Source of the DNA: Candidatus Thiodiazotropha sp. LNASS1
Lineage (GTDB): Bacteria > Pseudomonadota > Gammaproteobacteria > Chromatiales > Chromatiaceae
NCBI RefSeq assembly: GCF_964212655.1
Contig: NZ_OZ156465.1
Coordinates: forward strand, 1,364,001 to 1,428,000
Reading direction: 5' to 3'
Length of the DNA stretch: 64,000 nucleotides
The notes beneath the pieces are model-generated. The model ran no database searches. It saw only the letters and a list, made by a program, of their open reading frames with translations, and was not told where the DNA came from. Of this stretch, positions 3,141 through 38,946 are shown in pieces. The translations under genes were made by a program, and so were the position numbers. Numbering within the stretch: the first letter of the stretch is position 1; every line of letters begins with the position of its first letter.

Positions 3141-3505
3141 CGCAAATAATCACTGTCCATCATAATTCATTGGAGTATGGCCGCATGCTAAGCAGTCAGA
3201 TCATTCAATTATATCTGATTACATCTGACATACCGGGACATACTGGATCAGCAATACACGACAACATTGTTCCTGGTACTACGCAGCTCTTCGCTAAATA
3301 TTGAATCAGATTCATACGCATAGGCTTTCACATGGCGTGCAGATCTTTGTAAAAGTTCCATAACTGCTTTTATAGAAGTAACTTTTGCGACTTACATTCA
3401 GCTTTCGATCTTGTATCTCATATTTTTAACCCCGCCACTATGTTGCACCGCACAATTTTCACCTATACTATGCACTATATGCAATTGCTCCGCGGAGGTA
3501 TGGCG
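3141..3505. other. Intergenic region with a promoter near its right end
   Basis: AT-rich 365 bases between the divergently oriented TIR/WD40 and GNAT genes. Apart from the promoter at 3443-3471 and the ribosome binding site at 3494-3498, I recognise nothing. Confidence 0.5.
3443..3471 (+). promoter_or_regulatory. Sigma-70-type promoter of the GNAT gene
   Basis: TTGCAC and TACTAT are separated by 17 bases. The predicted transcript start (about 3478) is just upstream of the GGAGG at 3494-3498, supporting translation from the ATG at 3506 rather than from ATG codons further upstream. Confidence 0.5.
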
Positions 3506-4249
3506 ATGAGCAAACAACTGAAAATCGATGCAGAGTACTGCGAACGAATCATCCTGGATTCCGGTGATTGCGTCTGTCTGCGGATGGTCCGGCCTACCGA
3601 TAAGGCGACAATGCAGCGCGCCTTTACTGAGCTTTCCGGACCTTCCCGCCATAAACGATTCTTCGGTGCAAAACAGTCCCTCACCAAGGAGGATCTGCGT
3701 TATTTCACCGAGACTGACGGCTGGGACCATTTTGCTCTGGGGGCGGTAGTCATCGGTGAAGACGGCCGTGAAGGGGATGGGCTGGGAGTGGCCCGTTACA
3801 TCCGGTTGCAGGAAGACTACGAGTGCGCGGAAGTCGCCATTACCGTCATCGACCGAATGCAGGGCAAGGGAATCGGCCGCATGTTACTGGAACGCCTGAC
3901 CACTGCTGCTATCGAGCGGGGCATTCTGAGATTTCGTTTCGAGTGTCTGGCCTATAACCAGGAGATGCAAAACCTGGTAAAGAAGGTCTGCCGTGTTGTT
4001 GAGACCCGTTCTGACGGTGAGATCATGATTGCCGAAACCGACCTTCCCCGCCAGGATCCGGAGACTACCCCGATCACTCAGGAGCAAGTGTTCCTTTTTT
4101 ATGATCTATTTCGTGCCATGGCGATCCACTCTGTGGATCTACAGATGAGCCTGAACCGGGCGGCTGTTAATCGGACCATGAAGACAACTTTCATAGGCGC
4201 CGACCTACTGAAGCGGATCAAGCGCCCTGACCTCTTCATGTCGCGCTGA
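3506..4249 (+). CDS. GNAT family N-acetyltransferase
   Basis: 247 residues. The central part holds a GNAT fold. Motif A (acetyl-CoA pyrophosphate loop) reads QGKGIGRMLLERL, preceded by the strand CAEVAITVID. The N-terminal LRMVRPTDKATMQRAF matches the first strand-helix seen in the GNAT domains of protein acyltransferases. The C-terminal 60 residues extend past the fold and are not recognised. GGAGG lies 7 bases before the chosen ATG. The substrate (protein lysine or small amine) cannot be read from sequence. No operon partner: the next gene is on the opposite strand. Confidence 0.85.
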   Translation: MSKQLKIDAEYCERIILDSGDCVCLRMVRPTDKATMQRAFTELSGPSRHKRFFGAKQSLTKEDLRYFTETDGWDHFALGAVVIGEDGREGDGLGVARYIRLQEDYECAEVAITVIDRMQGKGIGRMLLERLTTAAIERGILRFRFECLAYNQEMQNLVKKVCRVVETRSDGEIMIAETDLPRQDPETTPITQEQVFLFYDLFRAMAIHSVDLQMSLNRAAVNRTMKTTFIGADLLKRIKRPDLFMSR

Positions 4250-24661: not shown

Positions 24662-26254
24662 TTACTGCTTTTTTATTTCCAGGACAGATACACTCTTGCC
24701 ACCAAGTTCATGAACAACAATGCGGTTATTGTTTGTATCTGCAATAAACAATGTCTTGTCATGCAGTGCCAGGCCACCTGGCTCATTCAACTGAAACTGG
24801 CCGTTTACGGTACTGAGAAAACCCGGCCTGCCATCGCCTATTATCGATTTAATCACATCCTTCCCGAGATCAACGATTTTGATTTTATGATTATATGTGT
24901 CCGCCAGGATAACCGAATGTTCACCGGCCACTGCAATGCCCAACACGTGTTGTAGTTTCGCTTCGTGCAATGTTCCATCCACATCACCGAAATCGAACAA
25001 CCCCCTGCCCACCAATGTCTCCACGACTTCGTCTTTCAGGTGAATGCGCCTAATCGCCGAGGCTTCTGAATCAGCAATATATAACCAGTCTCCGAAAAGA
25101 CTCAAGCCACTTGGCTGGCTGAATGTGGCTTTTTCGATATCTCCATCAGCAATACCTTCACGTCCCGATCCCGCAAAATGAATGAGTTGTTTTGATGCGG
25201 TATTGTAAACCCAGATCTGGTGGCTGCCCGCCATTGCGATGAAGAGTCGATCATTCCTGAGCGCCAGCGCCCAAGGTGACGCCATACCAATCGATGTGGC
25301 CTTATAATAGCCTTCACGTTTTCTTTCCAGGACACCATTACCTGCAACGGTAGTCACTGTTTTATCTATCAGGTCAATGTATCGTATGGTGTGATTCCCC
25401 GTGTCGGCCACATAGATTCCATTGCTGTCAAAGACAAGACCTTGAGGCATGTTGAATCTTGCCCGGTTGAAACCGCCGTCCTCGTTTCCTGGCTCTTCCA
25501 TCCCAATGACATGCTGTGTTTGTCCCTGATGATCTGTCACAAGAATCCGATTATGTAGCGTATCGCTTATCGCCAGATGGGTGTCGGAAACCGCAATCTT
25601 ACCCGGTGCAGCCAAGGGGGTTGGTTTACTGTTTTCACGTTCCAGTCGTAAAGGGATTGGAGTGAGGTTAAGGATACTCTTGTGCTGTTCGAGCAGTTCA
25701 GTGATTTTGTTATCTATCGGCTGGTATTTTCCTTCACCTGTCACCCGTCCCAGCACTTCTCCGGCAGGATCGATAAATACCCGGGTGGGCCAAGCACGCA
25801 TACCATAATAGCCTGCCAACAGAGAGTCGACATCGTTGACGACCGGATGGTCGACACCATACCTGATTACAATACTCCTGAGTGTATCGAGATTCTTTTC
25901 ATTATCGAATTTCGGTGTGTGCACACCAATAACCAAAAGCTGATCCCCATACTTTTTTTCCAGCTTCTTCAAGTCAGCCAGCACATGGATGCAGTTGATA
26001 CACCCGTAAGTCCAAAAGTCCAGAATAACGACCTTTCCCAGCATGTCGTCAAATGTCAGAGGCCTCTCAACGTTCAACCATGGCATGCCTGGCGCAAACT
26101 CCGCGCTGGTATCGACAAGATCTCTCTGAAATTCATCACTCTGCCCGTGATCCGCAGTCTCTGAAGAGCAGCCGTTAAAGCTCAAGAGCACTAATAGAAA
26201 CAGCGACCATTGCAACCTGCGATATATTGATAACGGATTGCCACTGTCAATCAT
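24662..26254 (-). CDS. Thioredoxin-like / NHL-repeat lipoprotein (NHLRC2-like)
   Basis: 530 residues. The lipoprotein signal ends LLSFNGC (Cys29). A thioredoxin-like domain (about 45-195) has KVVILDFWTYGCINCIHVLADL with redox pair Cys85-Ile-Asn-Cys88. An NHL beta-propeller follows (about 215-520), with blades such as GLVFDSNGIYVADTGNHTIRYIDL and GLALHDKTLFIADTNNNRIVV. Same architecture as NHLRC2-type proteins. Anchored in the periplasm, it could transfer electrons or repair oxidised thiols of the nearby redox enzymes. It is separated by 136 bases from the ferredoxin gene upstream and may have its own promoter. Confidence 0.85.
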   Translation of the reverse strand: MIDSGNPLSIYRRLQWSLFLLVLLSFNGCSSETADHGQSDEFQRDLVDTSAEFAPGMPWLNVERPLTFDDMLGKVVILDFWTYGCINCIHVLADLKKLEKKYGDQLLVIGVHTPKFDNEKNLDTLRSIVIRYGVDHPVVNDVDSLLAGYYGMRAWPTRVFIDPAGEVLGRVTGEGKYQPIDNKITELLEQHKSILNLTPIPLRLERENSKPTPLAAPGKIAVSDTHLAISDTLHNRILVTDHQGQTQHVIGMEEPGNEDGGFNRARFNMPQGLVFDSNGIYVADTGNHTIRYIDLIDKTVTTVAGNGVLERKREGYYKATSIGMASPWALALRNDRLFIAMAGSHQIWVYNTASKQLIHFAGSGREGIADGDIEKATFSQPSGLSLFGDWLYIADSEASAIRRIHLKDEVVETLVGRGLFDFGDVDGTLHEAKLQHVLGIAVAGEHSVILADTYNHKIKIVDLGKDVIKSIIGDGRPGFLSTVNGQFQLNEPGGLALHDKTLFIADTNNNRIVVHELGGKSVSVLEIKKQ

Positions 26255-26390: not shown

Positions 26391-27467
26391 CTATTCCATG
26401 ACTTGAAAAAGGTTATTATGATGGTTGACTTGAGCGCAAATTCTGCAATGTGTTTGCGATCGCGTGCCACTTTCTACCGGCATATGCGCCTGGTTGCCAC
26501 AGCATGAACATTTTATCGGCGCTAAGATCAGATCCCGTTGATCCAACTGCGACCACTGAATGACCGATATGGCTTGTGCATTGCATATATCCTGACAGAT
26601 GCCACAGCCGGTACATGCCTGCGGCTCCATTCGGTAAAACATCTGTTCACTGTTTTCAGTGAGTATTATTGCACCATGAGGACAGATCCTGATACAGGCA
26701 TCGCAGCCATTGCATTTAAAGGCGTCAATTTGCGGCACATACGGCCAAATTGAAGACCCGCCTCTCTCCGGCAACAACTCTCCTGGTGCTGGAAATTCAT
26801 CAGCTTCCGTTTCATACAGCTTGAATATGGCTGATGCGGCCTGAACGTTGCCATCGATCATTCCCCTTAAAAATCCTCTACGACTAAGCTTGGATGCCGC
26901 GTCATTTGCAACCAGGAGAGAACTGATACGCAGCCACTTATTGCCACTCAATAGGCGATAACCGATTGGTGCATTCAAATCATCGGAAAGTGCCGGATTG
27001 ATCCGATCGACTCTTTCAAAGAACGTTTCCCCACTGTTGCGTTGACACTCTGAACAACTACCCGTTGCCACTAGCCACTCGGAATATCCCAGCCGATACA
27101 ACTTAAGAATATCGTGTATGCCGATGAGATGGATACAGGGGATGGTGCCTTTCTGCCGGGTAAATCCCACCTCTTCACAGGCACACAACGCGATCTTCCC
27201 CTGTTTCCATTCACCAATAAGAATCTCATATTGAAATGAGATCGCCCCTTCAGGACAAACAGGCGCACACAAACCGCACCCGTCACACAGTGTGGTATCG
27301 AGTTGCAACGCATCATCATCCAAAGACCATGCACGCTGTGGACAGGCATCCACACATGATGAACAGCTCGCCACCTCTACCCTTGCATGGACACAACGCT
27401 CTGAAACCACATCCGGCAATCTCTCTTCTTGTCGGATACGATCGAACAGTTCTTTTAAGTGAACCAT
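26391..27467 (-). CDS. Multi-cluster 4Fe-4S ferredoxin-like protein
   Basis: 358 residues. Two ferredoxin pairs are visible: CSSCVDACP and CDGCGLCAPVCP near the N-terminus, and CNGCDACIRICP and CTGCGICQDIC at about 255-305. Further cysteine groups (CAC, CSECQ, CSCCGN...CRIC) may bind another cluster or zinc. The middle contains LSRRGFLRGM, resembling a twin-arginine motif but far from the N-terminus, which suggests fusion of a cytoplasmic ferredoxin with a NapG-like part. It probably passes electrons in or to the molybdoenzyme system. Follows the monoheme cytochrome gene by 30 bases, hence likely co-transcribed. Confidence 0.8.
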   Translation of the reverse strand: MVHLKELFDRIRQEERLPDVVSERCVHARVEVASCSSCVDACPQRAWSLDDDALQLDTTLCDGCGLCAPVCPEGAISFQYEILIGEWKQGKIALCACEEVGFTRQKGTIPCIHLIGIHDILKLYRLGYSEWLVATGSCSECQRNSGETFFERVDRINPALSDDLNAPIGYRLLSGNKWLRISSLLVANDAASKLSRRGFLRGMIDGNVQAASAIFKLYETEADEFPAPGELLPERGGSSIWPYVPQIDAFKCNGCDACIRICPHGAIILTENSEQMFYRMEPQACTGCGICQDICNAQAISVIQWSQLDQRDLILAPIKCSCCGNQAHMPVESGTRSQTHCRICAQVNHHNNLFQVME

Positions 27468-27497: not shown

Positions 27498-27884
27498 TTA
27501 TTTTTTGAAGCTTCTTAGATAAGCGACAATGGCTTTAATATCTCCATCAGGAATATCGGCACGCCCAGGCATCGTCGGTGCACCGCCATACTTGGCTGAT
27601 CCATTTTTTATTATATTGACCAGATCCGCATCAGTACCAGTTTGTCCATCGCCATCTGTATCATACAGGAACACACCCTCTACAAAACTACGTGGCTTCG
27701 GATTCATTGCCATTGCTGCCGGTCCATCACCCTGCCCGGACAATCCGTGGCAAGCCACACAACCGCCCGTACCCTCGTAGACACCCTTGCCTGCAGCAGC
27801 ATCCGCAAGGGTACCTTGTGAGTTGAAAACCAACAGTGTTGCAAGGGATGATACAGCCACCCAATGTCTTTTATCCAATTTCAT
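27498..27884 (-). CDS. Monoheme class I cytochrome c
   Basis: 128 residues with a cleavable signal (VAVSSLATLLVFNSQGTLADA). One heme c site, GGCVACHG (CxxCH), lies near residue 41. The likely axial Met is in APTMPGRADIPDGDIKAIVAYLRSF near 105. It is a small periplasmic electron carrier like those serving molybdoenzymes and terminal oxidases. AGGAGAG precedes the ATG. It sits directly after the TorD-like gene (41 bases), so it is likely the soluble partner of the DmsA-like enzyme. Confidence 0.9.
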   Translation of the reverse strand: MKLDKRHWVAVSSLATLLVFNSQGTLADAAAGKGVYEGTGGCVACHGLSGQGDGPAAMAMNPKPRSFVEGVFLYDTDGDGQTGTDADLVNIIKNGSAKYGGAPTMPGRADIPDGDIKAIVAYLRSFKK

Positions 27885-27925: not shown

Positions 27926-28699
27926 CTAGACTGCTGGGCCCATACCAGGCATGTAACAGAGAGAAACCTCTTCTTTTGGGGCATTGGGCTTCATTCTCTC
28001 TTCTATCTCTTCCCGTGACGGTCTGGGCTGATCGATCACGATTGCCAAAAGATCCCTCAACTCCTCGCAATAGGCGGCCGTCAATAAGCCCACAGCGGCA
28101 AAATATGGGGTTGCACACCGGCTTGCCACCCGATTGGAGAATTCACCCAACCAGCGCAACAGATGTTCGTCCATAAATCTTGCCGCATCCTTGAGATGCT
28201 TTTCGGACTCAGAAATCGAGAATAGGTGGGAAACAAACTGAAGCTGCAAAACCAGATCATCATCGGGCCTGATACGCCAGTTTTCCACCATAAGACCATA
28301 GATTTCATACCAGGCCCTTACCTGAAACATACTCTCTTGACAGGTAAGCTGTTCTTCATCCAGCCAGACCGATTCCAGCGGTGATGCCTGCAGGCTATGG
28401 TTCAGATAAATGTCAGCGTAATCTGCCGCCAATAGATCGAGGAAGTCATCATCGATTGTATCGGGCAATGACTCAACCACTCGCCCCATCAAGTCAATCG
28501 CATCGACGCCCTCTTCTGTGACCAGTTTCAATCCCATAGAGTACGGGAAGTTACAGTCACGTAAAGCCTCGAGAATCTTGCAGTCCGGCTCTTTCACATG
28601 GAGCAGTGCAAGCATCTCCAGGTCATCGGCAACCGCCTGATAGAAAGTCTGTAATAGTTTAACGCTCGACTTGTCGCGCAGGTCTAATGGTTTCCCCAT
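27926..28699 (-). CDS. TorD/DmsD-like molybdoenzyme chaperone
   Basis: 257 residues, all helical. Family hallmarks are LLAADYADIYLNHSLQASPLESVWL (the ADYADIYL/ESVWL region) and the MQVRAWYEIYGLMVENWRIRPDDDLVLQLQFVSHL-like stretch with the RPDDD hinge. These chaperones hold the Tat signal of a DMSO-reductase-type enzyme until cofactor insertion. The ATG overlaps the stop of the Fe-S subunit gene (TGATG), showing coupling. The partner is the Tat-exported catalytic subunit two genes upstream. Confidence 0.9.
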   Translation of the reverse strand: MGKPLDLRDKSSVKLLQTFYQAVADDLEMLALLHVKEPDCKILEALRDCNFPYSMGLKLVTEEGVDAIDLMGRVVESLPDTIDDDFLDLLAADYADIYLNHSLQASPLESVWLDEEQLTCQESMFQVRAWYEIYGLMVENWRIRPDDDLVLQLQFVSHLFSISESEKHLKDAARFMDEHLLRWLGEFSNRVASRCATPYFAAVGLLTAAYCEELRDLLAIVIDQPRPSREEIEERMKPNAPKEEVSLCYMPGMGPAV

Positions 28700-29364
28700 C
28701 ACTTGACCTTCCCTTTGCTGTGAGCGACAAAGCCGATTGAGGGCTTGGTCAACTCGATGTTCGACATGTTCTTTACCTGTCGGGATACCTTGTCGTTGGG
28801 ACCAATCGCCACCGTCTCCAATGCGCCATTCCAGATCGATTCTATTGGACCAATATCCAAAACACGCATCATACAGGCCATGACACAGTAGGGTTTTCGA
28901 CCCGCCTCGATCTCATCCACACACATGTTGCATTTCTTTACGATGTTATCGCTTGGATCAAATTGAGGCGCACCGAAGGGACAGGCAGCTTCACAACGCC
29001 GGCAGCCGATACATAGGGTGGAGTCGATATCGACAATGCCATCCTTCTTACGTTTGAAGAGCGCACCGGTGGGGCAAGTAGGCAGACAGGCAGGCGATTC
29101 ACAGTGGTTGCAGGACATATTGACCTTATAGGCAAACACATCCGGGTACTTTCCACCCTCGATATATTGTACACGCCTGAATCTTGGTCCGGCTGCTAAT
29201 CCATTTTTATCCTTACAGGCTATTTCACAGGCCCGACAGCCAATACAATCAACATTATTATGTATAAATCCCAACTGCATGTCGGGAACCACTGGCGTAT
29301 AAGTTTGGCGCTTACGGCGTTTTACCGCTTCCTTTATCCTGGCCTTCTCTTTTTTAACAGACAT
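28699..29364 (-). CDS. DmsB-like 4Fe-4S electron-transfer subunit
   Basis: 221 residues from the ATG preceded by GGAGGAGAG. Four cluster motifs as in DmsB/NrfC/PsrB proteins: CIGCRACEIACKDKN, CNHCESPACLPTCP, CIGCRRCEAACPFG and CNMCVDEIEAGRKPYCVMAC. It lacks its own Tat signal, so it is expected to hitchhike out with the catalytic subunit. It lies 17 bases downstream of the catalytic gene. The usual DmsC/NrfD membrane subunit that would accept quinol electrons is not encoded next to it. Confidence 0.92.
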   Translation of the reverse strand: MSVKKEKARIKEAVKRRKRQTYTPVVPDMQLGFIHNNVDCIGCRACEIACKDKNGLAAGPRFRRVQYIEGGKYPDVFAYKVNMSCNHCESPACLPTCPTGALFKRKKDGIVDIDSTLCIGCRRCEAACPFGAPQFDPSDNIVKKCNMCVDEIEAGRKPYCVMACMMRVLDIGPIESIWNGALETVAIGPNDKVSRQVKNMSNIELTKPSIGFVAHSKGKVK

Positions 29365-29381
29365 AAGTCTCTCCTCCAAGA

Positions 29382-31946
29382 TTAAAGGTCACGCCTGAAA
29401 ACATGGGCACGAGAAGTTGCCAGTTTGTCCCAGCCAGGTCGATGTTCAAGATCCGTCTTTTTGATATCGCACAACACGGTGTTGTATGCGAATGCCCCCG
29501 CCGGACTAGGCTCATCCAATGTCAGCATGTCCGGATTACCTGCCCTGTCCACACCGTTTTCATCCAGGTCAATCCACACCCCCTCATGCAGCACAGCCAC
29601 ACCGGGCATGCATCGTTCCGTTACATAGACTGGTACCACAACCTTGCCGCGCTCGTTCCAAATCTCGACTGTGTCACCGGTTTTGATGCCCAGTTTTTTT
29701 GCATCGGAGGCATTCATAGTCACTTCCTGCTCATAGGTCTCGCGCAGCCAACTGCAGTTATTGAAAATAGAATGCGTCCGCCATCGTGGGTGAGGAGAAA
29801 TAAGATGAAACGGATATTTAGCTGTCTTGGGACTGTTCAATGACTCCCACGGCTCGATCCACTTCGGTATGTAGGGGATTTCATAACCGTACATGGTCCG
29901 TTTCCAGTCGGTGATCTGCGCCAGCTGTGTGGCGAGAATTTCAATCTTGCCGGAGGGAGTCTGGAACGGTGTGCCGTTCTCTATTTGATCCCTGAACGCT
30001 ACGTGTGGTTGGTCGAATGTAAACTTGTAGACGCCTCTCTGCTTGAACTCTTCCCAGGACATATCCACATGCTGATGATGCATGACCTTTTGTTCCCACC
30101 ACTCTCTCAGGTAGGCCTCGTCCACATGGTCATTGACATGGAAATAGTCACGATTCGCCTTCGGATTGAATGCCTGACCGAAGACATCACCACCGATTCG
30201 ATAGGCTAGTTCAGTGAAGACCTGGAAATCGGTCTTCGACTCACCCATAGGCTCGATGACTTTCGGGCGGTGAATGTAGTAATGGCCTTTGTACCAAGGC
30301 AACGCCACATCGTGCCGTTCGAAGTGGGTCGCAATGGGCAGTAGGATATCGGCATAGAGGCCGGAAGGCGTAATGGTCGAATCCATGCAAACCACAAGCT
30401 CCAGCTTGTTGATCGCCTCAATCTCTTTATTGATATTAGTCAGTTGATTGAACCAATCGGATCCCTGCCAAAAGATACCCTTGATATTGGGTATCTGGCC
30501 ATCTGTATTGTCCTCCCTCTGCCAAAGGCCTATCTCTTCCCGTTTTACATTAGGGTAGTTGAGCACACAATGCGCCCAACGGTCCGATTTAATGGACTGA
30601 AACCAGATATTGGAATATTGATCATAGGGATAGGCCACCGCTTCGGCATGCCAGGCCTTGCCGACACCTTCGGCGCAACCGCCTAGATTACCGATATTAC
30701 CGGTCATCGCCTGGAGTGCTGCCGCCATACGATTGTACTGTTCACCGTAGGCGTTTCTTCCCGGTGACCAGGATGCCTTCAGCGCGGCCGGCTTGGTCCT
30801 GGCGTACATATCCGCCAACTTGACAATATCCTTCGCCGGCACACCGCAGATCCTGGACGCCCACTCAGGGGTTTTTGCCTCACCGTCATATTTGCCCAGG
30901 ATGTAATCTTTGAAATTTTCTTTACCCTTCGCCCATTCCGGCATTGTCCCCGCATCCATGCCTTGACAGAATTGATCGATGAAGGCTTGATCATGCAGGT
31001 TATTGGTAAAGATGTAGTGGGCCATGCCCGCCATCATTGCCGCATCGGTATTCGGACGGATGGGTATCCACCAGGCATCGTAGGCGGCGGCAGAGTCGGT
31101 ATACTGCGGATCAACCAACACAAACTTACAACCGCGTTGTTTTGCCATGCGCATATACATGAAGGTGTTGCCACCGTGGAATGTATAGGCGGGATTCCAA
31201 CCCCACATGATCATTAGTTTAGAGTGAGCAAAAGCATCGTCTTCATTCCCATCCTCGATGGTGCCGAAGGTCATACGAGAACTGAAGGTGGTACCTTGAT
31301 AGGAGGGCACCGACCAGGAACTGGTGCGGCAGCCAAACATTCCGAGGAAGCGACCCAACAAGCCCTCAATCTGGTCAGACTTGTGTAACACCCCATATGA
31401 AGCGCCGGCATAACTCTGATCCACCAAGGCAGTGGGACCATAGGTATTTTTAAGGTGGACCATCTTGTTGGCCACAAAATCAAGGGCCTCATCCCATGAA
31501 ATGCGCTTGAATTTTCCTTCACCCCGCTCGCCCACACGCATCATCGGGTAGAGCAGCCGTTCCGCCGAATAGAGCCGTTGGCGATAGGAGCGCCCCCGGA
31601 GGCAGGCCCTCAGTTGCGGCTCATCATTATCGTCCTTTCCGAAATAACCGCCGCGCTGATACCGTCCATCGTCAGTCGAAAGGCGCACGATGACATCCTT
31701 CCATTTATGCGCGACAAGCATATGGCGCGAACCGCAATTATGTGCGCAACTGGTCACCACCGTCTCGAGTTGATCGTCGGTCGGATAGGGTTCGTAAGCA
31801 AACGCCTTGGCCTCTTTTGCGGTCTTCAATTCCACCAAGCCTCCGGCAGCCAAAGTCGCACTGCCTGCCGCAGCAGACTTCAGAAATGACCGCCTGGAGA
31901 GATTCAAGCGCTCATGTAGATTCTTTTTCAGATTATCGATACTCAT
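29382..31946 (-). CDS. Tat-exported DMSO-reductase family molybdopterin oxidoreductase (DmsA-like)
   Basis: 854 residues. A Tat signal is present, NLSRRSFLKSAAAGSA (Arg18-Arg19). The body aligns with E. coli DmsA: ACLRGRS-x-RQR, VGERGEGKFKRISWDEA, KTPEWASRICGVPA, TPSGKIEI and the C-terminal KLGIKTGDTVEIWNERGKV cofactor domain. By alignment Ser215 (SVPSYQG) takes the molybdenum-ligand position, as in S/N-oxide reductases. The N-terminal Fe-S motif is C67-x3-C71-x3-H75...C115, with His replacing the third Cys of DmsA. It catalyses periplasmic oxygen-atom transfer, probably on a sulfoxide-like or related substrate. Electrons likely flow through the Fe-S subunit and cytochromes encoded alongside. 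Substrate and direction are unproven. Confidence 0.9.
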   Translation of the reverse strand: MSIDNLKKNLHERLNLSRRSFLKSAAAGSATLAAGGLVELKTAKEAKAFAYEPYPTDDQLETVVTSCAHNCGSRHMLVAHKWKDVIVRLSTDDGRYQRGGYFGKDDNDEPQLRACLRGRSYRQRLYSAERLLYPMMRVGERGEGKFKRISWDEALDFVANKMVHLKNTYGPTALVDQSYAGASYGVLHKSDQIEGLLGRFLGMFGCRTSSWSVPSYQGTTFSSRMTFGTIEDGNEDDAFAHSKLMIMWGWNPAYTFHGGNTFMYMRMAKQRGCKFVLVDPQYTDSAAAYDAWWIPIRPNTDAAMMAGMAHYIFTNNLHDQAFIDQFCQGMDAGTMPEWAKGKENFKDYILGKYDGEAKTPEWASRICGVPAKDIVKLADMYARTKPAALKASWSPGRNAYGEQYNRMAAALQAMTGNIGNLGGCAEGVGKAWHAEAVAYPYDQYSNIWFQSIKSDRWAHCVLNYPNVKREEIGLWQREDNTDGQIPNIKGIFWQGSDWFNQLTNINKEIEAINKLELVVCMDSTITPSGLYADILLPIATHFERHDVALPWYKGHYYIHRPKVIEPMGESKTDFQVFTELAYRIGGDVFGQAFNPKANRDYFHVNDHVDEAYLREWWEQKVMHHQHVDMSWEEFKQRGVYKFTFDQPHVAFRDQIENGTPFQTPSGKIEILATQLAQITDWKRTMYGYEIPYIPKWIEPWESLNSPKTAKYPFHLISPHPRWRTHSIFNNCSWLRETYEQEVTMNASDAKKLGIKTGDTVEIWNERGKVVVPVYVTERCMPGVAVLHEGVWIDLDENGVDRAGNPDMLTLDEPSPAGAFAYNTVLCDIKKTDLEHRPGWDKLATSRAHVFRRDL

Positions 31947-31970: not shown

Positions 31971-32765
31971 CTATTTCGCAGCCTGCTGATTCTTAATGCG
32001 GAACCTGGGTTCCGATTCGGTCGGCCTATCTTTGGCCCACTCTGGGGTGGTGCTCGACATACCTTTCCAGGCATGTCGGGGATAGGGATAGGCAATGCGG
32101 TACCACTGCCGCCCGCCATGACAGCCATAGCATATGTCCGGATCCTTTTTGGCCGCGGCCTCGATGGCCTCAGCTTTCAAAAAATTGACCTGGTGCCGAT
32201 TGGTGCGGATATTGGCGTGACAGAGCAAACAGTCGTTTTGAAAGAGCGCTCTCGACTCCGGCCAAGGCTTCGGCAAGCCCATCAATTTATAGGGGTTTCT
32301 CCCATGGCACATCAGACAAATCTCGGGATTCACCGACTTACGCAGAGTCTTTTCCCGATTCGAATGATCTGGGGGTATCGTTGCTTCTTCCCTTAAGTCG
32401 TTTCCCTGATGGCAGGTATTGCATTTCAAGTCCATCAGTTCCTTGGCCAGGGGTGTCACCAAGTGCCGACGATGAAAGGTATCCTGTTCACCCTCATAGG
32501 TCGATAAGGTTTGATACCAGGCCAATACCTCGGAAGCCTTAACACCGGCAGGTGACTGATAAAGCAGCTTCCTGCTTATAATCTCCTGATGGCAACTGAG
32601 ACACTGCTCATCACCTGCATTATCAATATAGGGTTTCGTGTGGATGGGGTGCCAACTAGCTCGGTCATAGTCCTTGACTGTAATATCACGGGCAAAAACC
32701 TGACCGATGGTGAGTAGCGCCATCGACAGTAGCAACGGAATAAGGAGCCTGATACCCAAAGTCAT
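31971..32765 (-). CDS. Pentaheme cytochrome c
   Basis: 264 residues with an N-terminal hydrophobic segment (IRLLIPLLLSMALLTIGQVFA), either a signal or an uncleaved anchor. Five CxxCH heme c sites are visible: CLSCH, CNTCH, CLMCH, CLLCH and CYGCH. Extra histidines (HHR-like RRHLV, TNRHQV) could be distal ligands. No match to a standard NapC/NrfH four-heme pattern. It precedes the catalytic molybdoenzyme gene by 24 bases, so it may take the place of the absent membrane anchor by passing electrons between the quinone pool or a carrier and the Fe-S subunit. Confidence 0.88.
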   Translation of the reverse strand: MTLGIRLLIPLLLSMALLTIGQVFARDITVKDYDRASWHPIHTKPYIDNAGDEQCLSCHQEIISRKLLYQSPAGVKASEVLAWYQTLSTYEGEQDTFHRRHLVTPLAKELMDLKCNTCHQGNDLREEATIPPDHSNREKTLRKSVNPEICLMCHGRNPYKLMGLPKPWPESRALFQNDCLLCHANIRTNRHQVNFLKAEAIEAAAKKDPDICYGCHGGRQWYRIAYPYPRHAWKGMSSTTPEWAKDRPTESEPRFRIKNQQAAK

Positions 32766-32891: not shown

Positions 32892-33955
32892 TTAGCGCCA
32901 GCCGCTCATGCCGGACATGCCGCCCATGCCGCCCATGCCGGACATGCCGCTCATACCGCCCATGCCGGACATGCCGCTCATGCCACCCATGCCACCCATG
33001 CCGGACATACCACTCATGCCGCCCATGCCGGACATACCGCTCATGCCACTAGCCGGGTAGAAGAAGATCTGTCCCTGTGGGGTGATCTTGAAATAGCCGG
33101 ACATACCGCTCATGCCGGACATACCGCTCATGCCGCCCATGCCGGACATACCGCCCATGCCGGACATACCGCTCATGCCGCCCATACCGGACATGCCGCC
33201 CATGCCGGACATACCGCCCATGCCGGACATACCGCTCATGCCGCCCATACCGGCATGCCGCCCATACCGGACATGCCGCCCATGCCACCCATGCCGGACA
33301 TGCCGCCCATGCCGCTCATTCCAGACATACCGCTGGGCACCCAAACCCACTGGCCGCCCATGCCTGACATCCCGGACATGCCACCCATGCCGCCCATACC
33401 GGACATGCCGCTCATGCCGCCCATGCCAGACATACCGCTCATGCCGCCCATGCCGCCCATGCCGGACATACCGCCCATGCCACCCATGCCGGACATGCCG
33501 CCCATACCACTCATGCCGCCCATGCCGGACATACCACTCATGCCGCCCATGCCGCTCATACCACTCATGCCGGACATACCGCTCATGCCACTAGCCGGAT
33601 AGAAGAAGATCTGTCCCTGTGGGGTGATCTTGAAATAGCCGGACATGCCGGACATACCGCCCATGCCGCTCATACCGCCCATACCGGACATACCGCTCAT
33701 GCCACCCATGCCGCCCATGCCGGACATACCGCTCATGCCACCCATGCCGCCCATACCGGACATACCGCTCATGCCACCCATGCCCGACATTCCGCCCATG
33801 CCAGACATGCCGCTCATGCCACCCATACCGGACATTCCGTCCATTCCTGACATGCCGTACATGCCTGCGGACGCCAATGGAGCGACAGTTAGTGCAACGG
33901 CCATCCCCATAGCTTTGATCACTCCTTTCAAACTCGGCATTCGAAACTTTTTCAT
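32892..33955 (-). CDS. Secreted Gly-Met-Ser triplet-repeat protein, reading frame broken by one base
   Basis: A Sec signal peptide (KKFRMPSLKGVIKAMGMAVALTVAPLASA) is followed by almost uninterrupted triplets G-M-S or G-M-G, so about one residue in three is Met. The run is broken about every 90 residues by aromatic inserts: GYFKITPQGQIFFYP near residue 105, GQWVWVP near 200 and GYFKITPQGQIFFYP again near 288. It ends GMSGWR. Between 33253 and 33254 one base is missing relative to the repeat (CCGG-CATG instead of CCGGACATG), splitting the frame. Upstream it reads to 33236 and downstream the same repeat continues in the shifted frame to a TAA at 32892. Restored length is 354 residues. GAGG lies 10 bases before the ATG. 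I recognise no family. Confidence 0.75.
33028..33104 (-). repeat. 77-bp direct repeat, copy 1 (aromatic insert module)
   Basis: Identical to 33570-33646 except one base (G/A). It encodes the aromatic insert GYFKITPQGQIFFYP plus flanking triplets. The near identity implies recent duplication or gene conversion within the gene. Confidence 0.85.
33570..33646 (-). repeat. 77-bp direct repeat, copy 2 (aromatic insert module)
   Basis: Partner of 33028-33104. The offset of 542 bases is one short of a multiple of three, consistent with the single missing base between the copies. Confidence 0.85.
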
Positions 33956-34061: not shown

Positions 34062-34346
34062 CTACTGATGCCATTGTCGAATATCGTATCTACCCTTCAT
34101 GCCGGGTTGATTGAAAGGCGTGTGCCAATTTCCTTGGTTGTCAAGGAAGTAGAGACTTTTGGGATAGGGTTGTTGCACACCAGTCAAGGAAGATTGATAC
34201 CAGACCTTGTCTCGCATCACCCATTCAATGACAGGCGCATCAACAGGCCGTTTGGAAGGCTCTACCCCAGCTATGGGATAGTCAGCCATGAGATGTGACG
34301 ACAGTAGCATCAACGCACCACAGCCGGCAGACAGAAACAACCGCAT
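34062..34346 (-). CDS. Small secreted protein, unknown family
   Basis: 94 residues with a signal peptide (RLFLSAGCGALMLLSSHLMA) and a mature part rich in Trp, Tyr and Pro: PVIEWVMRDKVWYQS...YPKSLYFLDNQGNWHTPFNQPGMKG. GAGGAGGG lies 11 bases before the ATG. It is the first gene after a near-perfect sigma-54 promoter at 34405-34419 and precedes the Met-rich repeat gene by about 100 bases, so it is probably co-transcribed with it. Cys9 in the signal could in principle make a lipoprotein, but the context is a poor lipobox. Confidence 0.75.
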   Translation of the reverse strand: MRLFLSAGCGALMLLSSHLMADYPIAGVEPSKRPVDAPVIEWVMRDKVWYQSSLTGVQQPYPKSLYFLDNQGNWHTPFNQPGMKGRYDIRQWHQ

Positions 34347-34404: not shown

Positions 34405-34419
34405 GCAACAGCTGTGCCA
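34405..34419 (-). promoter_or_regulatory. Sigma-54 promoter TGGCAC-N5-TTGC
   Basis: Read on the minus strand, TGGCACAGCTGTTGC matches the -24/-12 consensus exactly, with GG and GC 10 bases apart. The predicted transcript starts about 47 bases before the small secreted protein gene. An upstream palindrome (34507-34523) sits at about -120. A sigma-54 activator gene is 3.2 kb away. Confidence 0.85.
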
Positions 34420-34765: not shown

Positions 34766-35524
34766 CTAAAAGATACGTATGACACCACCATCCGATACAC
34801 GAATCGCCAGCTGATACTTCAATCGATATGGCTCGGAATCACCGACCACACTGACCAGATAGACACGATTAATCTTACGAATCCTACCAACCTGCAGGCC
34901 AGACTCCTGGGTGGTGTCTATCCATCGTTTTGTGAGTTCATGTACTTCCGACCACTCATCAAGAGGCAGTACGCCAGGGTCAAGTTGAAAATAGTCAATA
35001 CGGCATTCAGCCATATTAGCCGTTGTATCCACTGTCATTGACTGGTTTGTGGATGGCAACTCCACTGGATGAAACAGCAGTGCCCCGCTTTCATCCCTTT
35101 CAATATGCCAGTATTCGAAGCCTTTTAAATTTGCCGGTAACGTCACGGAGCCACTCTCAACAGTTTGAGTTACCGTTTCTGCCGGCGCATCGCCCGTATC
35201 GCCCGGCCGCAGAATCAATGTGCCGTCACTGTCCCATTCAACCTGCCATCCGCGCTCCTGCAGCGCATTGCCAAATTGTCTGATCTTCGGCAATTCAGCT
35301 TCAGGTGACTGATTGTCAGTTGCCGGCTCTTTTGCAGGTTGGCGATAGATAACACTGCCATCCGCGGAGATGTACTCTTGCCACCCTTGAAGAAGCAGCG
35401 ACTCACGCAGTGACTGAGAGAGGGTAACTCCCTGTTCTGCCAAGCCTGCTGTGGGTATTGACAGTGCAAGCCACAACAGATGAACGCTGATGCAACGATA
35501 TCGACTGTTTCTGTTTTTTTTCAC
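34766..35524 (-). CDS. Secreted protein with three G-W-x(n)-G-x-L-I-x-x-P repeats
   Basis: 252 residues from a GTG with GGAGGAG 9 bases upstream. Signal peptide to about residue 29 (LWLALSIPTAGLAE). Three related hairpin-like segments: GWQEYISADGSVIYRQP (47-63), GWQVEWDSDGTLILRP (92-107) and GFEYWHIERDESGALLFHP (135-153), joined by acidic/proline linkers. The C-terminal 90 residues form another unrecognised domain. The same pattern occurs in the aromatic inserts of the Met-rich protein two genes on. Driven by a sigma-54 promoter at 35574-35588. Function unknown, expected periplasmic or surface. Confidence 0.75.
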   Translation of the reverse strand: MKKNRNSRYRCISVHLLWLALSIPTAGLAEQGVTLSQSLRESLLLQGWQEYISADGSVIYRQPAKEPATDNQSPEAELPKIRQFGNALQERGWQVEWDSDGTLILRPGDTGDAPAETVTQTVESGSVTLPANLKGFEYWHIERDESGALLFHPVELPSTNQSMTVDTTANMAECRIDYFQLDPGVLPLDEWSEVHELTKRWIDTTQESGLQVGRIRKINRVYLVSVVGDSEPYRLKYQLAIRVSDGGVIRIF

Positions 35525-35573: not shown

Positions 35574-35588
35574 GCAAAACATGCGCCA
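35574..35588 (-). promoter_or_regulatory. Sigma-54 promoter TGGCGC-N5-TTGC
   Basis: On the minus strand TGGCGCATGTTTTGC matches the -24/-12 consensus at all key positions (GG-N10-GC). The predicted leader before the GTG at 35524 is about 38 bases. A CCTGAC-N5-GTCAGG palindrome lies about 90 bases upstream of the start point. Confidence 0.85.
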
Positions 35589-35722: not shown

Positions 35723-37582
35723 ATGATGAACTGGATAGCCAACAGCCTGAATCGGAAATTCATCCTTGGCACCACTTCCGGTCTTGCCATCAGCTCCCTG
35801 GTCTTTCTCCTACTCTATATTTCGCTCTACCAGTCTGAACTGGAGGGAGAACGCGCACACACAGCCAACCAGGTCAACAATCTGCTGCAGGTCTCATTGG
35901 AAAACGCCATGCTGAAGCGAGACCTGCCCGGTTTGAGCGAAATGGTAAAAAAACTGGGCAAGCAGGAGGGCATCGTATCCGTATTCATTACCAACCCTGG
36001 CGGCGAAATCAGATTCAGCAGCAGAGTGGGCGACTTTGGCAAACAATTGGCCAATCCCTACCGCACCACATCCCTTACAACCCAATTCCTCGAAGACAGC
36101 GATGGCCAGGAAATCCTGCGCAGCATCAATCCGGTACACAACAAAGCACCCTGTAAGGAGTGTCACGGACCTGCAGAGAAAAATCCCATCAATGGCATCC
36201 TGTACGTGGATTACGACGCCGTGCCGATCAGAAACAGGGTTCGTGACACCACCCTGATGCTGATGGGGGCTGGCGCGTTGATCGTCATTTTGAACCTGGT
36301 TGGAGGCTGGTGGTTCATCCATGCCTACATCCTCAGACCTGTGAACCATCTAACTCATGCAAGTCAAGAGTTGACCCACGGCAATCTAGAATCCCGCGTC
36401 TCAATGCGGGGTACCGATGAACTCTCAAGGTTGGGCGACACCTTCGATCTAATGGCGGAAAGATTGCAGGAGAAGCTCCTTGAACTGGAAGAACAGAAAG
36501 GTTTTTTACAGGCGCTTGTGGACGCCGTTCCTGACGGCATCAGAATTATCGACGATAAGTTCAAGATCGTATTGACCAACAAAGCCTATCGAGAGCAACA
36601 CAAACTGCCGCAAACGACAGAAGTCGGAAGCAACTGCTACACTCTCACACATAAAACAACCAAGCCCTGCCCACCTACTCTGATCACATGTCCGGTTCAT
36701 GAAATCCTGCAGCACCATAAGCCGATCAAAGTGGTGCATCAACACCATCGCTCCGATCAATCAACCTTTGAGGTTGAAATTTTCGCAGCACCCATGGAAA
36801 TAAAGCGAGGCAGGCGTGAAACAACCCTGATCGTCGAGTCGATCAGGGATCTTGCAAAAGAGGTTAAATATTCCCAGGAACAGAAACTCTCTGAATTGGG
36901 ACGTCTGGCAACCGGCGTGGCCCATGAGATCCATAACCCACTCGCATCTGTCAAGTTGGCCCTGGATGCCACGAAAAACGCGCTTATTGCCGATAATGAC
37001 TATACGGAAGGTGTCATGCAGCATTTCGAACTTATCGACGACGAGATCAACACCTGTATCGAGATCACCGGAAAGTTGCTCAAACTAGGCTCACCTCCCC
37101 CTGAAAGCCTTGAGTTGGTCGATGTCAATAACGCCCTGCATGAGACACTAAGCCTATTACAATGGCAGGCCGACCAGTTGCATATTACTGTTGAAGAGAG
37201 ATATAAAATCGATCTGCTTCGTACTCTGGCATCGGATAGTGAAATCAGAATGGTTGCGCTTAACCTGGCACAAAATGCGTTTCATGCGATGCCTGAAGGC
37301 GGGATATTGACCGTTTCCAGTTTTTCCGACGGTAAAAAGATTTTGCTGCAGTTTTCCGATACCGGCGCCGGTATCCGCGCCAAAGACCTGCCATATATAT
37401 TCGATCCCTTTTTCAGTCGTCGCGCTGACGATGTTAAAGGGACCGGTCTTGGCCTTTCAATCAGTCTAGCCATCATAGAAAAATATGGTGGAACGATAAG
37501 AGTTGAGAGTGAATTTTCCGCTGGCAGCGTCTTTACTATCGAACTGCCGGATGCCGCGCATGAACTAGAGGTAAAGACATGA
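35723..37582 (+). CDS. Heme-binding sensor histidine kinase (PAS, HAMP)
   Basis: 619 residues. Transmembrane helices at about 13-36 and 175-203 enclose a periplasmic domain containing C144-K-E-C147-H148, a c-type heme attachment motif. HAMP follows (about 200-255), then a PAS domain (about 262-375) with a Cys-rich segment CYTLTHKTTKPC...CPVHE. The HisKA box has His401 in AHEIHNPL, and the HATPase region has NLAQNAFHAM, FSDTGAGI and GTGLGLSIS. A covalent heme would let it sense redox state, oxygen or another heme ligand outside the membrane. Its stop overlaps the ATG of the regulator gene (ATGA). Confidence 0.9.
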   Translation: MMNWIANSLNRKFILGTTSGLAISSLVFLLLYISLYQSELEGERAHTANQVNNLLQVSLENAMLKRDLPGLSEMVKKLGKQEGIVSVFITNPGGEIRFSSRVGDFGKQLANPYRTTSLTTQFLEDSDGQEILRSINPVHNKAPCKECHGPAEKNPINGILYVDYDAVPIRNRVRDTTLMLMGAGALIVILNLVGGWWFIHAYILRPVNHLTHASQELTHGNLESRVSMRGTDELSRLGDTFDLMAERLQEKLLELEEQKGFLQALVDAVPDGIRIIDDKFKIVLTNKAYREQHKLPQTTEVGSNCYTLTHKTTKPCPPTLITCPVHEILQHHKPIKVVHQHHRSDQSTFEVEIFAAPMEIKRGRRETTLIVESIRDLAKEVKYSQEQKLSELGRLATGVAHEIHNPLASVKLALDATKNALIADNDYTEGVMQHFELIDDEINTCIEITGKLLKLGSPPPESLELVDVNNALHETLSLLQWQADQLHITVEERYKIDLLRTLASDSEIRMVALNLAQNAFHAMPEGGILTVSSFSDGKKILLQFSDTGAGIRAKDLPYIFDPFFSRRADDVKGTGLGLSISLAIIEKYGGTIRVESEFSAGSVFTIELPDAAHELEVKT

Positions 37583-38946
37583 CATCTAAAATAGTCGTCG
37601 TAGAGGATGACGACATACTCAGAAACCTCATCATACAACACCTCATTAAATTAGGATATGAGGCGGATGGTCTCAGTCGCTGGGACAACGTACTGGGTTA
37701 TCTGGAAAAGTATGAGCCATCGCTAATCATCACAGATGCCCGTCTACCCGACGCCAACAGTCTTGAGTATATCGAAAATCTATCCATAAATTATCCTGTA
37801 ATAATCCTCACCGCATTCGGTTCCGTTCGAGATGCCGTAGGCGCCATAAAAGCCGGAGCGATCGATTACATTCTGAAACCGGTCAGTCTCGATACACTTT
37901 CACTGACTGTCGAGAGAGCTCTTGATAATGCTGCACTACGGAAAGATCACCTGTTTTGCAAACGACAATTAGAGCAGAGCATCCAACGCAATTCATCGCT
38001 TGTCGGAAACAGCGAGGCACTGACAAAGGTCAGGCAATTAATCGGAGCTGTCGCTCCCAATGACATCACTGTACTGATTCAAGGTGAGAGCGGCTCGGGT
38101 AAAGAATTGGTAGCGCGTGCCATTCACGCACACAGCCATCGCAAAAAGCATAATTTCGTTGCAGTAGACTGCTGTACTCTGCAGGAAAATCTCTTTGAAT
38201 CAGAATTGTTTGGCCATGAGAAAGGGGCATTTACCGGTGCGGACAAACAGAAAAAGGGATTGATTGAGGGAGCGGAGGGAGGAACACTGTTTTTAGATGA
38301 AATCGGCGAAATAAACAGCAGTGGCCAAGCAAAGCTTCTACGCGTTCTGGAAACCGGGCGATTCAGGAGACTGGGCAGCACAAAGGACTTGAACGCCAAC
38401 GTCAGGATAGTGGCCGCCACAAACCGCGACCTGGAAACCATGTCGTCTGAGGGAGATTTTCGCTCCGACCTCTTCTTCAGGCTCAATGCTTTTAATATTA
38501 TTGTACCGACATTGCGCGACAGGCGTGACGATATCCCCGAGCTGGCCAAGCACTTCCTGACAAATCATAATTTTTCCACCCGGGTCAACAAAACACTTTC
38601 ATCATCGGCCATTCGCTCACTCGTCTCCTACGATTGGCCCGGTAATATCAGAGAGTTAAAGAATGTAATAGAACGAGCGATTATTCTCTCGGGTGACAGA
38701 CAGGCGATCAAACCGGAACATTTTGCCTTCACCCGGGTACTGGGCAAGGGTGAGGGGGTTGTGACTCTCAATTTTGATCACGATCCCTCCTTGGAGGAAC
38801 TGGAAGCTCACTACCTGTCGTATCAATTAAAGAAACATTCTGGTCGCCGTGGAAAAGTAGCGGAAGTCATGGGGATCAGCGAGCGAAGTATTTATCGCAT
38901 GATTAAACGCTACTCTTTGGATGACATCAAATATAAAGCAATCTAA
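37579..38946 (+). CDS. NtrC-family sigma-54-dependent response regulator
   Basis: 455 residues. A receiver domain (1-120) has the phospho-acceptor Asp53 in IITDARLPD. An AAA+ domain (about 140-370) contains Walker A GESGSGKE, the sigma-54-contacting loop GAFTGA and Walker B GGTLFLDEIGE. A Fis-type helix-turn-helix at the end reads RRGKVAEVMGISERSIYRMIKRY. It is coupled to the upstream heme-sensor kinase. Its targets are very probably the two sigma-54 promoters at 34405-34419 and 35574-35588, each with a CCTGAC-N5-GTCAGG palindrome. Confidence 0.93.
   Translation: MTSKIVVVEDDDILRNLIIQHLIKLGYEADGLSRWDNVLGYLEKYEPSLIITDARLPDANSLEYIENLSINYPVIILTAFGSVRDAVGAIKAGAIDYILKPVSLDTLSLTVERALDNAALRKDHLFCKRQLEQSIQRNSSLVGNSEALTKVRQLIGAVAPNDITVLIQGESGSGKELVARAIHAHSHRKKHNFVAVDCCTLQENLFESELFGHEKGAFTGADKQKKGLIEGAEGGTLFLDEIGEINSSGQAKLLRVLETGRFRRLGSTKDLNANVRIVAATNRDLETMSSEGDFRSDLFFRLNAFNIIVPTLRDRRDDIPELAKHFLTNHNFSTRVNKTLSSSAIRSLVSYDWPGNIRELKNVIERAIILSGDRQAIKPEHFAFTRVLGKGEGVVTLNFDHDPSLEELEAHYLSYQLKKHSGRRGKVAEVMGISERSIYRMIKRYSLDDIKYKAI

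Follow-up and report, generated by a model that had tools for sequence, protein, structure and literature searches.

The locus described here lies in a window of 64,000 nucleotides of Candidatus Thiodiazotropha sp. LNASS1 (contig NZ_OZ156465.1, positions 1,364,001 to 1,428,000), and its central gene (32892-33955, reverse strand; coordinates are those of the window) encodes a Met-rich protein with a Sec signal and an array of Gly-Met-x triplets, which we call the GM protein. The original prediction, made from the letters of the window, had proposed a Sec-exported protein of Gly-Met-(Ser/Gly) triplets directly beside a pentaheme cytochrome and a DmsA-like molybdoenzyme, and direct reading confirmed both the protein, with 29% Met, and its neighbours. 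On the same strand follow a pentaheme c-type cytochrome with a Sec signal and five CxxCH motifs (31971-32765) and the DmsA-like molybdopterin catalytic subunit (29382-31946), which carries a twin-arginine signal (RRSFLK, with PF10518 slightly below its cut-off), a Cx3Cx3H iron-sulfur motif and an SVPSY region at the molybdenum ligand. Profile scans identified the next two genes of this strand as a DmsB-like iron-sulfur electron-transfer subunit (28699-29379) and a TorD/DmsD-type chaperone (27926-28702).

The GM protein and its surroundings

The GM gene starts at the ATG at 33955 (MKKFRMPSLKG...ASAGMYGMSGM...), and its GM[SG] triplets come after a Sec-type signal. Frame A spans 33236-33955 and has 240 residues; Met accounts for 28.7%, Gly for 41.6% and Ser for 16.7% of the 209 counted from the first GM onward. 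A single frame break near 33250 (33236-33254) shifts the rest of the array to frame B (32892-33254), of about 120 residues with 33 Met; we left the break unmended, and the composition figures are those of frame A. The break may reflect either a real mutation or an error made in sequencing or assembly: the contig of the window's nearest relative (L179) stops within the array and gives no verdict, and intact reading frames exist in relatives such as a Lamellibrachia symbiont (L039). The aromatic inserts that had been predicted are present, namely YFKITPQGQIFFYPA at residue 107 of frame A, with a second copy in frame B, and a second kind, QWVWVPS, at residue 202 of frame A. The predicted blocks of about 90 residues can also be recognised, but their length is approximate, at about 75 and 95.

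Within one array Gly is encoded by GGC, GGT, GGA and GGG, and Ser by both TCN and AGY. Since the codons vary and the residues stay constant, it is the protein repeat itself that has been kept, and not only a DNA repeat, and the array is not due to chance. Across the eight GM arrays measured, Met makes up 27-33%, charged residues are few, His and Cys are scarce or absent, and Pro does not exceed 4% in seven of the eight. Met stands at almost every third residue, so that the MxxM spacing is present, and nearly every Met is preceded by Gly. Gly-Met is constant and the third residue drifts, as seen in the variant GM proteins that occupy the same slot in three genomes (G353, G538 and G839), with stretches such as GMYGMRGMGG, RGMNGMSGMYG and GMYGMPGMQG (third residue Y, R, P or N); these variants are 29-33% Met, and in the two of them for which a mature composition was computed Met reaches 32-33%.

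Profile scans of frame A returned just collagen-type low-complexity matches, far under the cut-offs. Identity with the collagen-like adhesins SclB and Lcl was rejected, the scores being 42.7 against 325 bits and 28.7 against 500 bits of the curated cut-offs; over the scans taken together, collagen-type models scored 28.7-115.4 bits where 325-500 are required. No sulfur-globule family was matched in the Pfam and NCBIfam scans, the presence of such a model in these libraries being unchecked. The predicted model of a GM paralogue has a mean pLDDT of 44.5 and one beta-hairpin at about 81; the chain is predicted to be disorder plus a hairpin insert and, since it would be unfolded outside that insert, its methionines would be exposed. 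Homology of the aromatic hairpin insert to the GW..DG.L.L.P repeats of a nearby protein, orf252, was considered, since the two resemble each other by eye, and dropped, as the profile test did no better than shuffled controls.

Directly upstream of the GM gene, on the reverse strand, lies orf94 (34062-34346), which encodes a small exported protein conserved in related loci and without a Pfam family; 18 members align with 41-64% identity to the window's copy and 20 invariant columns, and its predicted model is weak (63.9) and gave no match in a fold search. Farther upstream are orf252 itself (34766-35524, reverse strand), exported, with its GW..DG.L.L.P segments and found in a subset of loci, and two genes of the forward strand: a histidine kinase with HAMP, PAS and a CxxCH in its sensor part (35723-37582; 14 of 15 clustered kinases carry CxxCH), and a response regulator of sigma-54 activator type (37579-38946), AAA+/NtrC-like by sequence reading, which is the probable regulator of the operon. 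Downstream of the chaperone gene the reverse strand encodes a monoheme cytochrome c found in some gammaproteobacterial loci (27498-27884), a polyferredoxin-like protein that recurs across loci (26391-27467), and a peripheral exported protein of TlpA/NHL type, so named by reading its sequence, which clustered in 5 loci only (24662-26254).

A sigma-54 promoter had been predicted upstream of the GM gene. The site exists, but before orf94 and not directly before the GM gene: an exact TGGCAC-N5-TTGC of the -24/-12 type lies at 34405-34419, and a sigma-54-like site with one mismatch precedes orf252 (35574-35588), both on the reverse strand. With gene starts approximated by script, a match at 9-10 of the 10 positions is present in 14 of 22 upstream regions of orf94, in 17 of 980 random 300-mers and in 3 of 27 regions upstream of the GM gene, which places the promoter before orf94. 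Over the whole window the scan equals chance (36 sites against 37.5 expected, and 5 against 6.0 for a shorter pattern); weight is given to the conserved position ahead of orf94 alone.

The genome of the window (4.75 Mb, one contig) holds a second GM gene, with an open reading frame, which adjoins in convergent orientation an MsrA-MsrB fusion of 384 residues whose start resembles that of a lipoprotein. This bifunctional MsrA-MsrB is a thiol enzyme unrelated to DmsAB. The same pair is found in Candidatus Thiodiazotropha endolucinida (L111), a lucinid clam symbiont; the DmsA and MsrAB of the window's genome are each 96% identical to those of this organism (G021/L111), which makes the two genomes close kin. 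No MsrAB was found within 12 kb of DmsA in any of the 45 DmsA loci described below.

Co-occurrence of GM arrays and the DmsA clade

The link between the GM protein, the molybdoenzyme and the multiheme cytochrome, which had been proposed from this one window, recurs across Pseudomonadota, and co-occurrence was found in both search directions. From the side of the enzyme, we made an even draw of 299 Pseudomonadota genomes and ran the DmsA search and a five-unit GM pattern on the same 299. The DmsA clade is present in five of them (G000, G038, G129, G143 and G201), and Ser-containing GM arrays are present in exactly those five, with 114, 47, 23, 12 and 57 pattern matches respectively; 14 other genomes gave 1-4 matches, in which the third position is only Gly or, in G222, Thr/Ala. 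With the window's own genome excluded, the association is 4/4 against 0/294, a probability of about 3e-9 assuming independent genomes. Two further draws, one of 369 genomes from the class to which the window belongs and one of 289 from a different class, contained DmsA in 16 and 3 genomes. Over the three draws, 20 genomes other than the window's own were found through DmsA, and 16 of these have a strict array (including G490, whose one strict match lies on a different contig, beside orf94-like stretches) and 3 a GM variant beside DmsA; in these searches a few first-look candidates were scored per genome, and 5 of the 20 (G201, G382, G609, G614 and G657) are by coordinates the same as array-found ones. 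Upstream of DmsA in the only DmsA-selected genome in which no GM array was found lies a gene for an exported protein with repeated GW..GDL.LFP units (L252:105-1628, forward strand).

From the side of the array, a seven-unit pattern scan of genome contigs gave at least 119 stretches, mostly GroEL tails, with some GMT/GMA or other runs. The GroEL tails (GGMGGM; for example L003) are a lookalike and the main source of GMG-run matches, and were removed; reading the proteins left, among the matches listed, a sample of 27 GM[SG] loci in 26 genomes. DmsA is present in 25 of these 26 array-found genomes, again among the matches listed, the best match per genome being 77-96% identical to that of the window (in G019 the match is partial). 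Among the matches listed the array hosts are gamma-, beta- and alphaproteobacteria, and include Thiodiazotropha, Sedimenticola, Thiobacillus, Thiofilum, Thiolinea, Accumulibacter, Hyphomicrobium, Paracoccus and Marimonas. Outside the 26-genome count, a Thiotrichales metagenome-assembled genome (MAG; L124) carries a GM gene where its contig ends, next to orf252 and the kinase/regulator pair. GM homologues consistently apart from molybdoenzymes, which would have spoken against the original prediction, were not what we found; a few stand apart, namely the paralogue beside MsrAB (L002/L111) and a free-standing GM gene of a Sedimenticola MAG (L106:853-1437, forward strand), which lies apart from DmsA and has as a neighbour a Pyr_redox_2 protein that, from its sequence, reads like a sulfide:quinone reductase.

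The neighbourhood was scored in 45 DmsA loci from 41 genomes. A GM array lies upstream of DmsA on the same strand in 37 of the 45, and in 3 of the remaining 8 the sequence stops less than 60 bp upstream of DmsA. In 41 of the 45 the cytochrome lies no farther than 12 kb from DmsA, and DmsB, TorD, polyferredoxin, orf94, kinase and regulator recur as well, their absences being due in part to contig ends. The core locus consists of orf94, GM, multiheme cytochrome, DmsA, DmsB, TorD and polyferredoxin, often with the sigma-54 site and the kinase/regulator pair, and the gene order beside DmsA is preserved across classes. Several draft contigs (L024, L179, L180, L191 and L205) end in or right after GM arrays, and such assemblies can therefore hide the GM gene and its linkage.

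Other arrangements were seen along with the core locus. A second locus type combines DmsA and a multiheme cytochrome with a Crp-type regulator; it is present in G006, G007 and G011, and G018 has a truncated locus that resembles it. The loci of this type (L182, L206, L207 and L193) have the Crp-type regulator where the contig reaches it, some with a diheme cytochrome and a DUF302 protein, and among the four only L207 has a GM gene directly before it. GM-type runs also occur as parts of other proteins: a cytochrome c of Thiolinea disciformis has a terminal GMS run (L047:3190-3624, forward strand), about 22 GM[SG] triplets form the C-terminal tail of a PQQ-dependent dehydrogenase of the methanol/ethanol family in Paracoccus sanguinis (L061:2663-4816, forward strand), and three multicopper oxidases (L056, L130 and L131) have internal GM[ST] runs. 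The first two count among the 27 array loci, and their genomes hold a separate array by DmsA (L191 and L194).

The enzyme and described systems

The closest solved chains to the window's DmsA are dimethyl sulfoxide (DMSO) and trimethylamine N-oxide (TMAO) reductases. The tree comprises 44 of 52 alignment rows (two partial rows, six duplicates and one further batch of loci stayed out; it is midpoint-rooted and carries a long-branch warning), and in it the DmsA clade, of 31 rows, makes up one side of a branch supported at 100/99, adjoined by E. coli DmsA and L210 and apart from YnfE/BisC/TorA-like rows; outgroup labels were assigned by similarity, except for the annotated E. coli DmsA. Clade members share 33% identity with L210, the DmsA type included in the sample, and 27-30% with the other outgroups (DorA/BisC/TorA-like). 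All aligned clade rows covering the site have Cx3Cx3H in place of Cx3Cx3C, the third iron-sulfur Cys being His, and all covering rows have SVPSY or SIPSY in the molybdenum-ligand region; its Ser, which we take to be the ligand, aligns with that of DMSO reductase (1eu1) and E. coli DmsA. Scores of the window's proteins stay below the curated cut-offs, with 629.9 against 777.7 bits for DmsA (TIGR02166) and 190.1 against 214.1 for DmsB (TIGR02951).

With E. coli DmsABC and YnfEFG the GM locus shares the DmsA and DmsB families, the Ser ligand and a TorD-type chaperone. It differs from DmsABC in the His just mentioned and in having a multiheme cytochrome where DmsC would be expected; no DmsC-type anchor recurs among the neighbour clusters inspected by eye, no profile search for DmsC having been made. 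Shewanella DmsEFAB is a DmsAB fed by a multiheme cytochrome, extracellular and with an outer-membrane barrel. The GM locus resembles it in a DmsAB that would be fed by such a cytochrome, but the window's cytochrome is just a weak match to DmsE (27 of 192.2 bits).

The statement of the original prediction that no system of this kind has been described is wrong, since two such systems, with enzyme and peptide families unrelated to those found here, appear in PMC4623255 and PMC8315932. In Azospira, mrpX is encoded with yedYZ (YedY1Z1, that is MsrPQ), and MrpX is a Met-rich periplasmic sink with a methionine sulfoxide (MetO) reductase, proposed to be sacrificial and regenerable (PMC4623255). In Brucella, the bcrXQP operon combines BcrX, an MXKDX-repeat protein, with MsrPQ, under the control of an extracytoplasmic function (ECF) sigma factor (PMC8315932). 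Both thus place an exported Met-rich repeat protein beside a molybdenum MetO reductase, as the GM locus does. However, the GM locus has GM-x triplets and not MXKDX, an enzyme of DmsAB type and not MsrPQ, and a multiheme cytochrome in addition; in place of the ECF sigma factor of BcrX it has a conserved sigma-54 site and a kinase/NtrC-type pair (no ECF search was made here). The principle is therefore known and the parts differ. No pairing of a GM repeat with DmsA was found in the literature searched, in which most subscription papers lay outside reach.

Concerning the chemistry, the original prediction cited BisC and TorZ as reducing MetO, which according to PMC8076862 holds for free MetO only. 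Rhodobacter DorA, a periplasmic S-oxide reductase, does reduce protein-bound MetO, and is reported to reduce the peptide GAGM(O)Q faster than GYM(O)E (PMC7402097). By analogy this preference might fit the Gly-preceded Met of the arrays, and is suggestive only, concerning two peptides and another enzyme.

A probable regenerable methionine sink and competing explanations

The original prediction had proposed a dense methionine surface whose sulfoxides the molybdoenzyme reduces, or a matrix that carries metal or electrons, and its interpretation is supported in part. We infer that the operon is probably a regenerable periplasmic methionine sink, whose sulfoxides are reduced by DmsAB. The reading builds on gene content, conserved order, co-occurrence, motifs, the sigma-54 site and the paralogue beside MsrAB, all of them observed in sequence data. 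In the mechanism that we propose, the GM protein would be exported as a mainly unfolded chain with small beta-hairpin spacers and Met at nearly every third residue, and oxidants would turn its Met into MetO in vivo. DmsAB, as a Ser-ligated S-oxide reductase that is exported by the Tat route and owes its maturation to the TorD-type chaperone, would reduce these sulfoxides, with electrons passing through the multiheme cytochrome and the iron-sulfur clusters of DmsB; a kinase with a putative sensor heme and the sigma-54 activator would turn the operon on, and the second GM protein, beside the lipoprotein-like MsrA-MsrB fusion, would be serviced by the thiol route. Three points strengthen the sulfoxide-reductase part of the reading: the position of the second GM gene beside MsrAB, the active site of Ser-ligated S-oxide-reductase type, and the reported ability of a DMSO reductase to reduce protein-bound MetO (PMC7402097).

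Several observations weigh against the sink. Five DmsA loci with more than 2 kb of upstream sequence have no array (G011, G014, G020, the second copy of G353, and G440), although G014 and G020 do have an array at the end of another contig (L070 and L107); a second DmsA copy in G006, not scored apart, is without its own array, and in G440 no GM array was found, strict or variant. Conversely G023, selected for its array, gave no DmsA match, yet has orf94 beside the GM gene. MsrAB is a neighbour of the GM gene in one lineage only, among the loci examined. The active-site Y-G-W of DorA is absent from the clade, which has Y-A-G, and the activity of DorA on proteins may thus not transfer; E. coli DmsA, according to PMC8076862, is not known to act on protein MetO. 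No quinol-side partner was found, and the direction of electron flow is assumed. MsrP has no match in the window's genome, and is above its cut-off in 22 of the 41 genomes, in no listed place sharing a contig with DmsA, so that a simple replacement of MsrP by GM/DmsAB is unsupported. Chlorite as the source of oxidant is likewise unsupported, chlorite dismutase being found in 0 of 41 genomes.

An unlikely explanation, though one that must be weighed against the sink, is the respiration of small sulfoxides: DmsAB would reduce DMSO or another soluble S- or N-oxide (or oxidise organosulfur), and the GM protein would have an accessory role, such as protecting or scaffolding the exposed molybdenum and iron-sulfur enzyme. 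The family position close to DmsA/YnfE and a multiheme cytochrome suited to a respiratory chain agree with it, and DMSO is assumed in the symbiont papers (PMC6872982, PMC11237559). It leaves unexplained, however, why Gly-Met is kept with a free third residue, and it sits poorly with a second GM gene beside MsrAB without DmsA and with the lack of a recurring DmsC-type anchor (by eye). Binding of copper or another soft metal appears less probable again. MxxM is a known Cu(I) motif, and the arrays could be a Cu(I) store or shield, the enzyme keeping Met reduced or being merely co-regulated; the MxxM spacing of the arrays and the Met-rich GM[ST] runs of the three multicopper oxidases speak for this, the latter also against the sink. 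His and Cys are nevertheless scarce or absent in the eight arrays, the regulator is a CxxCH kinase/sigma-54 pair and not a copper sensor, no recurring neighbour cluster reads as a copper gene (by eye, without a profile search), and the S-oxide-reductase partner has no explanation.

We consider it very improbable that the GM protein is a structural or adhesive low-complexity protein, like collagen, silk or a sulfur-globule protein, in the operon by shared regulation only. Gly at every third residue, the weak matches to collagen-like adhesins and the many sulfur oxidisers among the hosts would suit such a protein, but the scores are far under curated cut-offs, Pro stays low in seven of eight arrays, hosts such as Hyphomicrobium, Paracoccus and Accumulibacter argue against a tie to sulfur globules, and the order beside DmsA is kept across classes. 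We give hardly any credence to a conduit, in which the Met-rich chain would link multiheme cytochromes, by carrying electrons or by docking, to the enzyme or to a partner outside the cell. The GM gene mostly shares one operon with the cytochrome, the chain is predicted to be unfolded, and GM tails are fused to a cytochrome c and to a PQQ dehydrogenase (L047 and L061), all of which would be expected of a conduit; against it, Met is not known to serve efficiently as a hopping residue at such potentials, aromatic residues are few, and the Met count is far above what docking needs. As for the methionine sink, it is doubtful, if conceivable, that the GM protein also serves as a solid-phase store of electron acceptor, its Met being charged to sulfoxide during exposure to oxygen or oxidants and, in anoxia, respired by way of DmsAB and the multiheme cytochrome.

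These questions bear directly on the lucinid symbionts. In Ca. T. endoloripes, the symbiont of Loripes, a DMSO-reductase-like gene ranks with the most highly expressed genes (PMC6872982). In upwelling, dmsB and dmsD of Ca. T. boucheti and of Ca. T. endolucinida reach 2,149-3,540 median transcripts per million, within the top 100 transcripts (PMC12172469), and the substrate of the lucinid-symbiont "DMSO reductase" is unverified (PMC8090883). As the genome of Ca. T. endolucinida gave a single DmsA-like match at E <= 1e-100, the GM-linked one, the highly expressed enzyme is likely, from this genome, to be the GM-linked DmsA, and the GM protein offers a concrete alternative substrate for it. The GM gene and orf94 together are a simple handle to re-annotate the DmsA clade. 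If the sink is real, a new function has to be assigned to an entire clade now annotated as DMSO reductase, and methionine-sponge defence has arisen at least twice from unrelated parts, spanning alpha-, beta- and gammaproteobacteria. If the store of electron acceptor were also real, the GM protein would provide bacteria living at oxic-anoxic interfaces with a protein-bound redox capacitor, and the lucinid "DMSO reductase" would be its respiratory enzyme.
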